Source: Phycisphaerae bacterium
GTDB taxonomy: Bacteria > Planctomycetota > Phycisphaerae > Sedimentisphaerales > Anaerohalosphaeraceae
Assembly: GCA_018052735.1 (NCBI GenBank)
Contig: JAGPMT010000005.1
Span: 1 to 64,000, forward strand
DNA length: 64,000 nucleotides
Direction of reading: 5' to 3'
How positions within the stretch are numbered: the stretch's first letter is position 1; every line of letters starts with the position of its first letter. The position numbers and the translations under genes were made by a program. This document shows, one piece after another, positions 3,731 to 22,673 of the stretch. Below the pieces are notes generated by a model that was not told the origin of the DNA, made no database searches, and saw nothing but the letters and a program-made list of their open reading frames with translations.

Positions 3731-6700
3731 ATGGCAGATAAAGGATTTACGCATCTTCATTTACATACACAGTATTCCCTTCTGGACGGGGCAATTTCGG
3801 CTAAAAAACTGTTCAGCCGATGCAGCGAATTGGGAATGAGTGCAGCCGCGATTACCGATCATGGAAATATGTTCGGGGTAGTAGATTTTTATATTCAAGC
3901 CAAAGAGGCGGGCATCAAGCCCATATTGGGGATGGAGGCTTATATTGCCCCGGAAAGCCGTTTCGACAGACAAAAAGGTGGTGGTGTTAAGGAAAATGCC
4001 TTTCATTTGCTGCTGCTGGCTGAAAACCTCACAGGATACAGGAACCTCCTTAAGCTCAGCAGTATCGGCTTCACAGAAGGTTTCTACTATCGCCCGCGAA
4101 TTGATATGCAAGTATTGGCTGAAATGAATGATGGCCTAATTTGTACAACGGCCTGCATAGCAGGGCAGGTGCCGTCTGCACTTATTCGAAATGATTGGGA
4201 GGGAGCAAAAAAGGCGGTCAGCCAATATCTGGATATTTTTAGCAGGGAACGTTTTTTTATTGAAATACAGGAGCATGACAACGAAGAATACCCTGACCTG
4301 CGATCCAAGCTGATTCATCTGGCAAAAGAGATGGGTGTTCGGTTGGTAGCGACAAACGATGTCCATTTTCTCGAAAAAGAGGATTTCGAGGCGCATGAGG
4401 TACTCTGCTGTATCAACACAGGGAAAAAAATTACGGATCCTGACCGGCTGAAATATCCCCCCAGTGCTTATTTGAAAAGCCCTCAGCAGATGCGGGAGAT
4501 GTTTTCCGATGTGCCGGAAGCCTGTGATAATACGCTTCTGATTGCCCAAAGATGCTGTGTTGAGCTGGATTTAAGCACCCGCCATGCCCCTGTTTATCGG
4601 CCGGAAAACGGCAGCACGCCGGAAGAGTATCTGCGCAAACTGGTATATGAAGGGGCAAAAAAGAAATACGGCAGACTAACCAGTGAGATTGAACAGCGCA
4701 TCGAAAGGGAATTAACTGTCATATCCGGCAAAGGATTTGCCAGCTACTTTCTTATTGTGTGGGACTTTTGCAATTATGCCCAGAAAAACAATATTCCAGT
4801 CGGCGCCAGAGGCAGTGCCGTCGGAACAGTGGTTGGCTACTGCCTTGGGATATGCGATGTGGATCCCATCCGTTATGACCTTCTTTTTGAGCGTTTTATG
4901 GATCCGGAGCGGACGGAGATGCCTGATATTGATATAGATATCTGTCAAGTATCCCGTCCGGCCGCCTTGGAATATGTCCGGCAGAAATATGGTCAGATTG
5001 CACAAATAATAACGTTCGGAACCATGAAGGCCCGCGCCGTCATTCGGGATGTTTGCCGGGTGATGAATGTGCCCCTGTCAGAGGCAGACCGACTGGCAAA
5101 ACTCGTTCCGGCGGAGCTGAAAATGACGCTGGATAAAGCGTTAGAAGTTGAACCTGACCTGAAGGCGGCCTATGAGAAAGACCCGGCCACAAAGCGAGTC
5201 ATTGATATCGGGCGAAGATTGGAGGGTTTAGCTCGCCATGCCTCAGTGCATGCCTGCGGTGTGGTTATTGCCGATGAGCCGCTGACGAATTTTCTGCCGC
5301 TTTATAAACAAGCTGGTTCCGATGATTTGATTACGCAGTTTGAAGGCCCTACCGTTGAAAAGGTGGGCCTGCTGAAAATGGATTTTCTGGGGCTTAAGAC
5401 GTTAAGCGTCATCCAGCGGGCGGTGGATTTGGTAGAAAGTCTGCACGGGAAAAAAATTGATATCGAGTCTATCGATATTGCAGATCAAAAAGTCTTTCGG
5501 GACATCTTCGGGTCCGGACGAACCAAAGGGGTTTTTCAGTTTGAATCCGGCGGGATGCAGGATTTACTGATGAAGCTCAAGCCGGACCGCATTGAGGATT
5601 TGATTGCAGCCAATGCGCTGTATCGGCCCGGGCCAATGGCTTTGATTCCTGATTATATTGATCGCAAGCACGGGGCGAAGTGGGATGTGCCTCATCCAAT
5701 TATGCGTGAGGTTTTGGCGGAAACGTTTGGTATTATGGTCTATCAGGAACAGGTCATGCGCATCTGCAACCGCTTGGGTGATATTCCCCTGCGGGAGGCT
5801 TATGCCCTCATCAAGGCCATTGGTAAAAAGAAAGAAAAGGTCATCAAGGCCGAAAAAAAACGCTTTGTGGAAGGATGCCTTAAAAAAGGCCTGACGGAAT
5901 CTCAAGCAGAGGAAATTTTTGACCTGATTGAGCGGTTTGCCGGCTACGGATTCAATAAAAGCCATGCGACCCGCTATTCATTTGTAGCTTATCAGACGGC
6001 TTGGCTGAAATGCTACTATCCGGTGGAATTTATGGCGGCTCTTCTGACCTATGAAATGGGCTCAACCGATAAGGTAGTTGAGTATATTGAAGAGTGCAAG
6101 CAGATGGGAATAGAAGTTCTGCCGCCGGATATTAATGAAAGCTTCGTTGATTTTACGGTCATTTACAACACCCAGCGCGGCCCGCACCCAGACAAAGGAG
6201 TTATCCGTTTTGGCTTGGCGGCGGTTAAAGGCGTTGGCCAAAAGGCAGTCGAACAGATTATTGCGGCCAGAGAAAAAACAGGGCGTTTTAAGAGCTTGTT
6301 TCATTTCTGTGAAACGGTTGATCTTCGGGCGGTTAATAAGCAGGTTCTTGAGGCACTGATAAAAGCCGGGGCGTTTGACAGCTTGGGCGGCAGCCGTGCG
6401 CAGATGATGGCGGCACTGGAAAAGGCCATGCAGGTCGGAGCATCTATGCAGGCCGATCGGGTCAGCGGACAGATGAATTTTTTTGGCACAGGGATATTGA
6501 ATACAACCGCGCAGGAGGATGCAAAAAATCTCCCCGATGTGCCGCCTTGGCCCGAACAGCAGATGCTGCAGTATGAAAAAGAAGTACTTGGATTTTATGT
6601 TACCAGCAATCCACTCAGCCGCCATGCCGAGATGATTAGTGTCTACTCGACTGCCAACACCAGCCAATTGGCACAGAAAGGCGAGGGACATTCAGTAATC

Positions 6701-13273: not shown

Positions 13274-13654
13274 GTGAAAAAAACAATAGAGGAGATTGCT
13301 CATCAGGATGGCCGTTATGATGCCCGGGCGCTGAAGTTTGTCTTTGAGGGGCTGGCCGCAACGATCGACAAGCTCCGTCGGCAGGAAGATCCTGAAGCAG
13401 CTCCGCGTCATATTACCGGGCAGGAACTGGCTTGGGGGTTGGCTGAAGCAGCACAGAAACGCTGGGGACGGCTGGCGGCGATGGTTCTCGGCTACTGGGG
13501 CGTACATACCACCCGGGACTTTGGTGAAATTGTTTATCTGATGATTGATTCCGGCTGGATGACCTCGCAGGAAACCGATACTATCGAGGATTTTGACGAT
13601 GTCTTCGATTTTGCCGAAGTTTTTGAAAAACAGTACCGCATCGAGATACGATAA
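13274..13654 (+). CDS. Minf_1886 family protein
   Basis: 126 residues from a GTG start with AGGAAAG six bases before it. The sequence (HQDGRYDARALKFVFEGL, then WGVHTTRDFGEIVYLMID, then an acidic end with DDVFDFAEVFE) matches my memory of the Minf_1886 or Plancto_Ver_chp family (TIGR04138), which is confined to Planctomycetes and Verrucomicrobia and has no known function. It is soluble. It lies 27 bases before the sigma-factor gene, so the two may be co-transcribed. Confidence 0.8.
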   Translation: MKKTIEEIAHQDGRYDARALKFVFEGLAATIDKLRRQEDPEAAPRHITGQELAWGLAEAAQKRWGRLAAMVLGYWGVHTTRDFGEIVYLMIDSGWMTSQETDTIEDFDDVFDFAEVFEKQYRIEIR

Positions 13655-13680: not shown

Positions 13681-15321
13681 ATGAGAATCCGCATCAGTCA
13701 TCCAGCGCTGAGAGATTTGTTCGACCAGCTTCGTTTTTCGCCTCTGTCCCAAAAGAAAAAGCAGCTTGCTGCCGCCGAACAGCTGGGTATGATCATTGAC
13801 TCCCAGCAGGAATATCCTTATGATTTCATTGTCTATCGGATTACGGGCTATCGTCCCCGTATGGATACGCCGCTGCCGCTTATTTCAGGCAAGGACCTGC
13901 TGTTAGATCTGCGGGTATGGATCGCGCAGCTCAGCAGCGAACTTCATATCCAAGCGGATGAGCAGCCCGAACCCCTTCTTACAATCCAGCAGATCGCCCG
14001 CCGATTCTCCGTATCGGCCAAAACTGTCCGGCGCTGGCAGAAACGGGGTTTAACAGGCAAAATGTATGTATTTAGAGACGGCCGCAAGCGCATGGGTTTT
14101 TTGGAATCGGCTGTGCAGGATTTTGCTCAAGCCCATTCGGAACAAATACAGCGATCAAGCAGATTCTCTCTTTTGAAAAGCGAAGAAATACTGCAGATTA
14201 AAGCGATGGCTCGGGAATTATCTGCAACCCGCCGTTTTCGAAGCCGCAACGAGCTTATTCTTGAAATCTCTTCCCGTCTGCACCGGTCGCGTCAAACGAT
14301 ACGCTCGGTTCTAAATCGATGGCAGAAAGAAGAGAAAAATCCGCCGTGCATGCCCTTTACACGGGGAAAAATCGGGCCGCGAGAAGCCGCTCAGTTATAT
14401 AAGCTTAGGCAGCAAGGCTGCTCCATTCCCGACCTGATGCAGCGTTTCAGACGCAGCCGTTGTTCTATTTACCGGATTATCAATCAGCAGCGTGCCAAGG
14501 AACTGCTGGCCCGCCGTTTAGAGTACATTGACAGTGATGAATTTCATTGCGGTGATGCTGAACAAATTATTTTGCAGATGCCATTAGGCGACTTGCTCTC
14601 CGGACGTCAAGCCGAGACTGTTTTATTAAGCCGACAGCAGGAAATAGAATTGTTTCGCCGCTATAATTATCTCAAATATCTGGCCTTTCAGGAGCGCAGC
14701 CGGCTGGAACGCAGGTGTATCCGCTCAGAACAGTTAGGCCGAATTGAAAAGCTTCTGAAGGAAGCTGAAGAAGTCAAAAATATCATTATCGAGGCGAATA
14801 TGCCGCTGGTTGCCAGCATAGCCGGCAGGCATCTGTCTTCGGGGCAAACACTAAATGAATTGGTCAGCGAAGGGAATATGACTTTGCTAGCGGCGGTTGA
14901 AAAATTTGATTACCGCCGGGGGTATCGCTTCAGCACGTATGCAAGCTGGGCGATTGCCAAAGATTTTGCCCGCCTGCTGCCGGCAGAAAGCAGGCGTCCG
15001 GATCGGGCGGCAGGAACAGACTTGGCAAATTTGCCTGCCGATCTTCGGCTGGAGCAGCTGTCAGATGCGGCCGCAGTTGAACAGGCACAGCGCGACTTAC
15101 GGAAGATTATTGAAAATAATCTTGATTCACGAGAACAGTACATTATCCTGAACCATTATGCGCTCGATGCCGGCGCGATTCCTAAAAAATCCAAAACCCT
15201 CAAACAGATCGGAGAGGAATTGGGATTAAGCCAGGAACGGATACGACAGATTGAACTGCAGGCGCTACAGAAATTGCGGCAAAGTTTGAGCCCCGAACAG
15301 TTTGACCTGCTGACCAAATGA
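13681..15321 (+). CDS. Sigma-70 factor with N-terminal HTH array
   Basis: 546 residues. The C-terminal half is a sigma-70 factor: region 1.2-like LLSRQQEIELFRRYNYLKYLAF (315-336), region 2 from NMPLVASIAGRHL to FSTYASWAIAKDFARLLP (373-434, promoter melting and -10 reading), and region 4 with a C-terminal HTH (GEELGLSQERIRQIE, about 511-525). Only about 50 residues join regions 2 and 4, so sigma domain 3 is missing. The N-terminal ~290 residues hold what I read as three further helix-turn-helix units: about 100-123 (TIQQIARRFSVSAKTVRRW, MerR/excisionase-like), 190-215, and 237-270 (resolvase-like). Start ATG 13681 follows GAAGG. Probably an alternative sigma factor that carries extra DNA contacts. 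Confidence 0.8.
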   Translation: MRIRISHPALRDLFDQLRFSPLSQKKKQLAAAEQLGMIIDSQQEYPYDFIVYRITGYRPRMDTPLPLISGKDLLLDLRVWIAQLSSELHIQADEQPEPLLTIQQIARRFSVSAKTVRRWQKRGLTGKMYVFRDGRKRMGFLESAVQDFAQAHSEQIQRSSRFSLLKSEEILQIKAMARELSATRRFRSRNELILEISSRLHRSRQTIRSVLNRWQKEEKNPPCMPFTRGKIGPREAAQLYKLRQQGCSIPDLMQRFRRSRCSIYRIINQQRAKELLARRLEYIDSDEFHCGDAEQIILQMPLGDLLSGRQAETVLLSRQQEIELFRRYNYLKYLAFQERSRLERRCIRSEQLGRIEKLLKEAEEVKNIIIEANMPLVASIAGRHLSSGQTLNELVSEGNMTLLAAVEKFDYRRGYRFSTYASWAIAKDFARLLPAESRRPDRAAGTDLANLPADLRLEQLSDAAAVEQAQRDLRKIIENNLDSREQYIILNHYALDAGAIPKKSKTLKQIGEELGLSQERIRQIELQALQKLRQSLSPEQFDLLTK

Positions 15322-21188: not shown

Positions 21189-22673
21189 ATGATGAAACTT
21201 TCTATGACAGGCCAGATGCGAATGGAGCAGAAGATGAAACTGGCTCCGCGGATGATTCAATCGATGGAGGTTTTGCAGCTTCCGATGCTGGCGCTGCAGG
21301 AAAAAATCGAGGCCGAACTGAATAGCAATCCTGTTTTAGAAATAGCCGAAAACCGTGAAGAGTCGGCCGAAGCTTCATCTGATGAGTTTTCTGAAGTATC
21401 ACAGGAAAGAGAATTAGTAGTACGAGAAGATTCGGATTATATTGATGACTTCCAGCGTCTGGAAAACATCAAAGACGTTTATGGCGATTATATCGGCAAC
21501 GATGAATCGTTTTCATATCGGGTTTCCCGCCTATCGGCTTCCAGCGGAGAAGAGGACAAGAAGATGGAAGCCCTCCAGAATACAGCAGCTCAACAATTGT
21601 CGCTCCATGATTACTTGAAGGAACAGTGGAGGATGGTTGAAGCCGACACGGAGATAAAAGCTGCTGGGGATATGATTATCGATTATATAGATGAAAAAGG
21701 GTATTTATCCGTCCATCTGGAGCAGCTTCACAATAAGGACAAACATGGATTTGGAATGGAGCATTTGCAGAAGGCCTTGGAGTTGATTCAAAAACTTGAG
21801 CCTGCCGGTGTCGGTGCCCGCGATTTGCGGGAATGCCTGCTGATACAAATGCGTCAGTTTCCTGATGATATGTCGTTAGAAATGCGCGTGGTGCAGGAAT
21901 GCTGGGAAGAATTGCTGGAAAATCATCTTCCATTAATTGCAAAAAAATTAAACTGTTCTTTGGAACAGGTAAACCGGGCTATTGAGCGGATGAGCAAGCT
22001 CGATACCTCTCCGGGTCTTCTTGTGGGGCGGAACGAAAACCATCCCATATCCGCCGATATAATTGTAGAACCGGATGAGCACGATGGATATACAGTTCGC
22101 TTGGTCGAAACAAAGCTGCCAAATCTGCGCGTTAGCGAATTTTATCAGAAAATGGCACACGATCGCCGCATTGATGAACAAACACGGCAATTTCTCCAAA
22201 AGAATATACGATCGGCCCAGTGGTTTATGGATGCCATTCGCCAGCGCAAACACACTCTTCTGCGGGTGGCAAATGCCATTGTTAAGCACCAGAAAGATTT
22301 CTTTGATAAAGGCAAGCTCTACCTCAGGCCTTTGCCGATGGCTGCAATTGCACAAGAAGTAGGCGTGCACATCGCCACGGTTTCCCGTGCAGTTTCGGGT
22401 AAATATATGCAGTGTCCTCAAGGAATCCTGCCGCTTCGCAGTTTCTTTAGCGGAGGAATGGAAGATGCCTGCGGCCAAGAGCACAGCTGGGATGCGGTCA
22501 AGGCCAAACTGCAGGAAATTGTGGACAAAGAAGACAAATCCAATCCGCTGAGTGATGATGAAATCCGTGAAAAGCTTATGGCCGAAGGAATGGGCAATAT
22601 CGCCCGACGAACAGTTGCCAAATACCGCAAACTGTTAAATATTCCAACGGCTCGCCTGCGAAAAAAATACTGA
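21189..22673 (+). CDS. rpoN: RNA polymerase sigma-54 factor
   Basis: 494 residues, typical. N-terminal glutamine-rich activator-interacting region (KLAPRMIQSMEVLQLP), a short acidic region II, the core-binding region, an HTH (MAAIAQEVGVHIATVSRAVSGKY), and the C-terminal RpoN box ARRTVAKYRK (about 474-483) that reads the -24 element. ATG at 21189 or 21192 can serve; GGAG precedes both. No enhancer-binding protein is encoded in the window. A TATAAT lies about 70 bases upstream without a clear -35. Confidence 0.96.
   Translation: MMKLSMTGQMRMEQKMKLAPRMIQSMEVLQLPMLALQEKIEAELNSNPVLEIAENREESAEASSDEFSEVSQERELVVREDSDYIDDFQRLENIKDVYGDYIGNDESFSYRVSRLSASSGEEDKKMEALQNTAAQQLSLHDYLKEQWRMVEADTEIKAAGDMIIDYIDEKGYLSVHLEQLHNKDKHGFGMEHLQKALELIQKLEPAGVGARDLRECLLIQMRQFPDDMSLEMRVVQECWEELLENHLPLIAKKLNCSLEQVNRAIERMSKLDTSPGLLVGRNENHPISADIIVEPDEHDGYTVRLVETKLPNLRVSEFYQKMAHDRRIDEQTRQFLQKNIRSAQWFMDAIRQRKHTLLRVANAIVKHQKDFFDKGKLYLRPLPMAAIAQEVGVHIATVSRAVSGKYMQCPQGILPLRSFFSGGMEDACGQEHSWDAVKAKLQEIVDKEDKSNPLSDDEIREKLMAEGMGNIARRTVAKYRKLLNIPTARLRKKY

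Follow-up and report, generated by a model that had tools for sequence, protein, structure and literature searches.

The gene at positions 13681 to 15321 of the window, by which we mean the whole analysed stretch of 64,000 nucleotides from the metagenome-assembled genome of a Phycisphaerae bacterium, raises the question of how a sigma factor would choose its promoters when it lacks one of the domains that commonly serve this task and carries DNA-binding modules of its own instead. As a rule, a sigma factor recognises its promoter through domains 2, 3 and 4, and an activator is a protein in its own right. An initial annotation had described the product as a sigma region 2/4 core preceded by about 290 residues with three helix-turn-helix (HTH)-like segments, with domain 3 apparently missing. 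The present analysis bears out this architecture and suggests that the way in which the protein selects and controls its promoters is probably unusual. The features to which the text refers are as follows.

13274..13654, + strand: Minf_1886 family gene, 5' neighbour of the sigma gene (TIGR04138, 4.9e-38), outside the proposed mechanism
13681..15321, + strand: gene of the HTH-array sigma-70 family protein (ATG start, 546 aa)
13681..13950, + strand: N-terminal alpha/beta domain, residues 1-90 (AlphaFold2 model, no Pfam match)
13972..14139, + strand: HTH1, residues 98-153, winged, MerR/HTH_17/BldC-like (profiles, model, superposition)
14173..14340, + strand: HTH2, residues 165-220, homeodomain-like tri-helix (profiles, with HTH_23 at 0.0012 the weakest of the three; model, superposition)
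14368..14535, + strand: HTH3, residues 230-285, resolvase/Mor/sigma4-like tri-helix (profiles, model, superposition)
14614..14703, + strand: region-1.2-like segment, residues 312-341 (LLSRQQEIELFRRYNYLKYLA), shortened in the window protein
14776..15003, + strand: sigma region 2, residues 366-441 (Pfam), with changed -10-reading residues
15004..15078, + strand: linker replacing domain 3, residues 442-466 (alignment to E. coli sigma70)
15079..15288, + strand: sigma region 4, residues 467-536 (Pfam), with group-1-type -35-contact residues

Pfam analysis of the sigma half revealed both core regions well above their curated cut-offs, with Sigma70_r2 matching residues 370-428 (1.4e-13, 50.8 bits, cut-off 24) and Sigma70_r4 matching residues 480-534 (9.9e-18, 63.8 bits, cut-off 24.1). 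Both regions were detected in all 29 homologues scanned, and the Pfam scan of the window protein gave no region 1.1 match. The distance between the equivalents of R441 and E585 amounts to 87 residues in the window protein versus 143 in E. coli RpoD, the latter value being also that of another sigma factor of the window genome. Spacings of 79-89 residues were obtained for 34 long intact homologues, 83-92 for 24 short paralogues and 83-91 for four phage relatives (see below). Domain 3 is thus absent from the window protein and from every long intact member.

In sigma70, residues E585, R588 and Q589 touch the -35 element, while W433/W434, Q437 and T440 read the -10 element. Nearly all of the 34 long intact members retain the three -35 contacts. 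At the -10-reading positions, all 34 depart from the canonical pattern: W434 is never a tryptophan, Q437 is always lysine or arginine and T440 is always alanine. The window protein itself carries W, A, K and A at the equivalents of W433/W434, Q437 and T440. As regards putative binding to core RNA polymerase, it has the equivalents of E407 and N409, with Q406 replaced by serine. Judged from these substitutions, the -10 element that is read would have to differ from TATAAT. Region 2 is the best-conserved part of the protein in the intact clades (63-78% mean pairwise identity in clades with many members, 55% among three others), as would be expected if the protein works as a sigma factor.

Comparison with the established sigma groups gave a mixed picture. 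As in group 1/2 sigma-70 factors (RpoD/SigA/SigB), whose solved SigA/SigB chains align with regions 2 and 4 (E down to 9e-27), residues E585, R588 and Q589 are kept, and a region 1.2 is recognisable in the Pirellulaceae-like members (families f47, f80 and f87; this label, like 'Rhodopirellula-like', is tentative). Unlike these factors, the HTH-array protein has no domain 3, has W434, Q437 and T440 replaced, and adds three HTHs and an alpha/beta domain in front. The succession of region 2, a short linker and region 4, with neither a region 1.1 match nor domain 3, corresponds to group 4 (ECF) sigma factors. The protein might therefore be an ordinary ECF-like sigma factor whose N-terminal extension is a sensing or inhibiting domain, a role already suggested for the extensions of planctomycete ECFs, with the HTHs serving protein contacts or autoinhibition. 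In line with this explanation, planctomycete ECF sigma factors with N-terminal extensions, formerly classified as ECF87-89, have been reviewed, none of which has been studied by experiment (PMC8103513). Judged by their description, they resemble the present protein in having such an extension. No conserved anti-sigma-like neighbour was seen among the gene neighbours examined, which also fits this explanation. However, the HTH-array protein is far larger than ECF factors, and its family profile, in a comparison of scores, stands nearer to the domain-3-containing sigma L002 (131 bits) than to the ECF-like sigmas of the same genome, L005-L007 (27-50 bits). Group 4 sigma factors lack the first helix of region 1.2 (PMC4598750). 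A region-1.2-like segment is present in shortened form in the window protein, and Pirellulaceae-like members carry a longer one of group 1 type, LPPYLASLYEVPLLTREQE, which speaks against the ECF explanation. As the conserved recognition-helix residues described below also fit DNA binding, we consider the ECF explanation quite improbable. Nevertheless, since planctomycete ECFs with N-terminal extensions are already on record, the HTH-array sigma is better regarded as a variant than as a new category. In the literature searched, with most subscription journals outside its scope, we found no description of an HTH-array sigma factor without domain 3. MzaA of the MZA anti-phage system is likewise a large sigma-70 protein with a long N-terminal part and an alignable sigma core, but the match is confined to that core and reaches 107.8 bits against an NCBIfam curated cut-off of 800, and the window gene is located among housekeeping genes.

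Turning to the N-terminal half, three separate segments were matched by HTH profiles when the whole window protein was scanned and when the segments were scanned singly. HTH_23 and HTH_28 matched 29 of 29 homologues, and HTH_17 matched 28 of 29 with E-values down to 2.3e-13. For HTH1 of the window protein, scores of 26.8 bits for MerR (cut-off 28.2), 25.7 for HTH_17 (27) and 22.4 for MerR_1 (21.6) were obtained. An AlphaFold2 model of residues 1-300 (pLDDT 76.6, built from an alignment of three sequences only; the full-length model was poor, with pLDDT 61) contains the HTH folds that had been proposed for this part of the protein, together with the separate alpha/beta domain of residues 1-90 that the initial annotation had missed. 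In the model, HTH1 comprises helices 102-109 and 113-121 and a beta wing at 127-141, HTH2 helices 189-200 and 204-217, and HTH3 helices 249-256 and 260-284. HTH1 superposes on BldC (Z 6.6, 2.4 A, 32% identity) and, with its MerR/HTH_17 profile matches close to the cut-offs and its modelled wing, may belong with MerR/BldC-type winged HTHs, from which it differs in being one of three tandem HTHs inside a sigma protein. HTH2 superposes on the IS-element protein TnpE, and HTH3 on the HTHs of sigma region 4 and Mu C. As Z scores below 8 are frequent by chance, the profile matches carry more weight than these superpositions. A Foldseek search of the PDB with the N-terminal model yielded no match at E <= 0.001, which is uninformative as to a new fold. 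T115, R118, W119, T206, R208 and R265, all situated in HTH recognition helices, are among the most conserved positions of the N-terminal half, and their invariance would fit with DNA binding by the HTHs. At locus L208 (G264:C93, reverse strand, ~583-1719), the N-terminal domain (residues 1-83) is joined straight to a sigma half, with the HTH array absent. This fusion suggests that the alpha/beta domain is a separate module; an equal partial match of the domain was observed in G309, a genome of the same family.

The closest named relatives, with 63-69% identity across the full protein, come from metagenome-assembled genomes labelled Sedimentisphaerales and Planctomycetales, and most of the searched genomes of the order encode a full-length homologue. 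Among 139 Phycisphaerae genomes, 134 contain the N-terminal half (132 of them in a single copy), and phylum-wide it is present in 50 of 176 genomes, including all f47, f80 and f87 genomes among those listed. Long intact forms from these Pirellulaceae-like families match end to end, with the sigma half intact. Given this breadth, the architecture is not a one-off fusion, and the recurrence in related genomes that the initial annotation had linked to a distinct sigma class was indeed observed, within a lineage lacking domain 3. Many of the same genomes encode short paralogues of ~300-400 aa, which lack the HTH array but share the domain-3-less sigma half and, in front of it, the short IEYIDSxEF-like motif. 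In a tree of the sigma halves, the long, short and phage forms split from two domain-3-containing sigmas with support 99/96, and their inner order is unsupported. A single clade was rejected neither for the long forms (p-AU 0.375) nor for the short forms (p-AU 0.422), the base of the tree being without resolution, so that the HTH array may have been either gained or lost. The phage forms are short domain-3-less sigmas of the same lineage on contigs of a viral collection (L090, L091, L092 (~4719-5702, +), L094, L095 and L098), which possibly represent planctomycete phages. L090-L092 score 303 bits against the family profile, and a full-length relative was absent among the 80 viral loci retained.

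A development that the initial reading of an HTH-sigma fusion had not foreseen became apparent in four Phycisphaerae families (f10, f22, f24 and f25), where the orthologue retains its N-terminal half but shows decay of the sigma half. In 9 of 9 proteins scanned from these families, region 2 does not reach the Pfam cut-off; region 4 is absent or weak, and the HTHs persist. The sigma contact residues are gone in 21 eroded proteins, and the mean pairwise identity of region 2, 63-78% in the larger intact clades, drops to 26-40% and does not exceed that of the HTHs. We infer that the HTH half serves an independent function that outlived sigma function, so that the role of the HTHs is not sigma-dependent everywhere; sigma activity appears to be dispensable in these four families. 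Genomes of the same families were also found to encode short sigma paralogues whose contact residues are intact. Together, these observations speak for an alternative in which the protein is mainly a DNA-binding transcription factor and its sigma half a polymerase tether that rarely or never initiates alone, and hence can be lost in some lineages. In the intact clades, however, region 2 is the best-conserved part and the -35 contacts are nearly invariant, which suggests full sigma function there, and we therefore regard the transcription-factor alternative as unlikely.

A possible target of the array emerged from the upstream regions of the sigma gene, where alignments from two Pirellulaceae-like genera share a strongly conserved block. 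GAACTT-N13-17-CGTC precedes 11 of 111 long genes, all of them in f47, versus 0.1 expected from shuffling. The extended pattern TGYGAACTTTT-N8-13-CGTC gave 14 matches in 12 whole f47 genomes (1-3 per genome where present, none for the reversed control), of which 10 lie upstream of the sigma gene, in 10 of the 12 genomes. The palindrome TTCGYATGCGAACTT, joined to the promoter-like CGTC element, occurs exactly once per genome in six f47 genomes, each time upstream of the sigma gene, and was not found in five other genomes of the family. As the pattern was derived from these very upstream regions, its presence there is unsurprising, and its absence elsewhere is the informative part. Autoregulation is the likeliest reason for a box unique to the upstream region of one regulatory gene. 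The earlier proposal that the array reads upstream elements or acts as a fused activator thereby gains indirect support, namely a gene-specific palindromic box at the protein's own promoter region in Pirellulaceae-like members; promoter reading by the HTHs remains putative. A relaxed version of the promoter pattern was mostly chance (33 matches versus 17 for the reversed pattern), neither the window's genus nor genus g2 yielded a conserved promoter box 5' of the sigma gene, and matches to the box within the window were at chance level, with none upstream of the window gene.

Of the four remaining matches to the extended pattern, two precede a Phe-Glu-Ser-Ser-His tRNA cluster in a pair of genomes from a single genus and would allow for a wider role. 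There, a half-palindrome with the CGTC element is located 5' of the cluster (L251:1500-1526 (+) and L254:1500-1526 (-)), and the cluster ends in a gene partly similar to IscB/Cas9d. The half-box at this second kind of site would also suit the view that some other regulator, or an ECF sigma factor, acts on the palindromic box and CGTC element, with the HTH-array protein controlling an unrelated gene set. The sequence GAACTT-N14/15-CGTC, which resembles ECF promoters, points in the same direction. Another sigma factor may accordingly read the box, which does not resemble the TTGACA predicted from the region 4 residues. This combination of an ECF-promoter-like box and a group-1-like region 4 is the main doubt about anchoring of the protein at promoters. 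On the other hand, a site that occurs once per genome and always 5' of the same regulatory gene typically indicates autoregulation, and we hold a different regulator to be somewhat unlikely.

We give about an even chance to the reading that the protein is a sigma70 variant of Planctomycetota which its own HTH array anchors at promoters, and which is probably autoregulated in Pirellulaceae-like members. According to this proposal, region 2 would bind the clamp of core RNA polymerase and melt DNA, region 4 would read a -35-type element, and the HTH array would bind DNA at the promoter or next to it. It would thereby make up for the specificity and holding energy lost through the changes in the -10-reading surface and the absence of domain 3, and in Pirellulaceae-like members it would most likely bind the palindromic box upstream of its own gene. 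A more far-reaching interpretation, which we put forward only tentatively and consider rather unlikely, is that the family forms a sigma class of its own. In this class, the three-HTH array would have taken over promoter choice from the core, leaving the latter with polymerase binding and melting, and in the four eroded families the protein would have become a transcription factor once sigma function was lost, a transition that could be traced. A near-universal, single-copy protein of an entire class that unites sigma and DNA-binding modules without domain 3 would constitute a natural test of how far promoter recognition can be handed to extra modules, and the lineages in which only the DNA-binding half is intact would document successive evolutionary steps that lead from a sigma factor to a transcription factor. 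The protein is also a candidate core regulator with a defined DNA site for Planctomycetota, a phylum whose promoters are poorly known.

The genomic setting of the gene, in the order tmk, holB, ricT, metG, the Minf_1886 gene, the HTH-array sigma gene and proC, indicates a housekeeping environment and neither a mobile nor a defence island. In several families of the order proC follows the sigma gene, and the other neighbours examined vary. The Minf_1886 family gene, which belongs to a family of unknown function and is present in one copy in the window genome, indeed precedes the sigma gene as initially annotated. The functional link suggested by this arrangement did not hold up, as the two genes adjoin within the window's genus only, and we dismissed Minf_1886 as a partner, its adjacency being a genus-level coincidence.

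Rhodopirellula baltica RB12251, a 567-aa protein annotated as 'RNA polymerase specialized sigma factor' whose gene is repressed by heat, cold and salt (PMC2754498), was considered as a possible counterpart and ruled out. Its number places it far from rpoA (RB12626) and near asnB (RB12191), whereas in a Pirellulaceae-like genus that may be Rhodopirellula, five genomes (G288:C1, G270:C1, G437:C1, G375:C1 and G413:C1) have the sigma gene and rpoA on one strand, some 32 kb apart, and no asparagine synthase gene was found near it in those genomes of this genus with comparable coordinates. In the window, the HTH-array sigma gene is followed, 6 kb further downstream, by the gene for another sigma factor, rpoN (sigma-54; TIGR02395, 2.3e-116), at positions 21189-22673.
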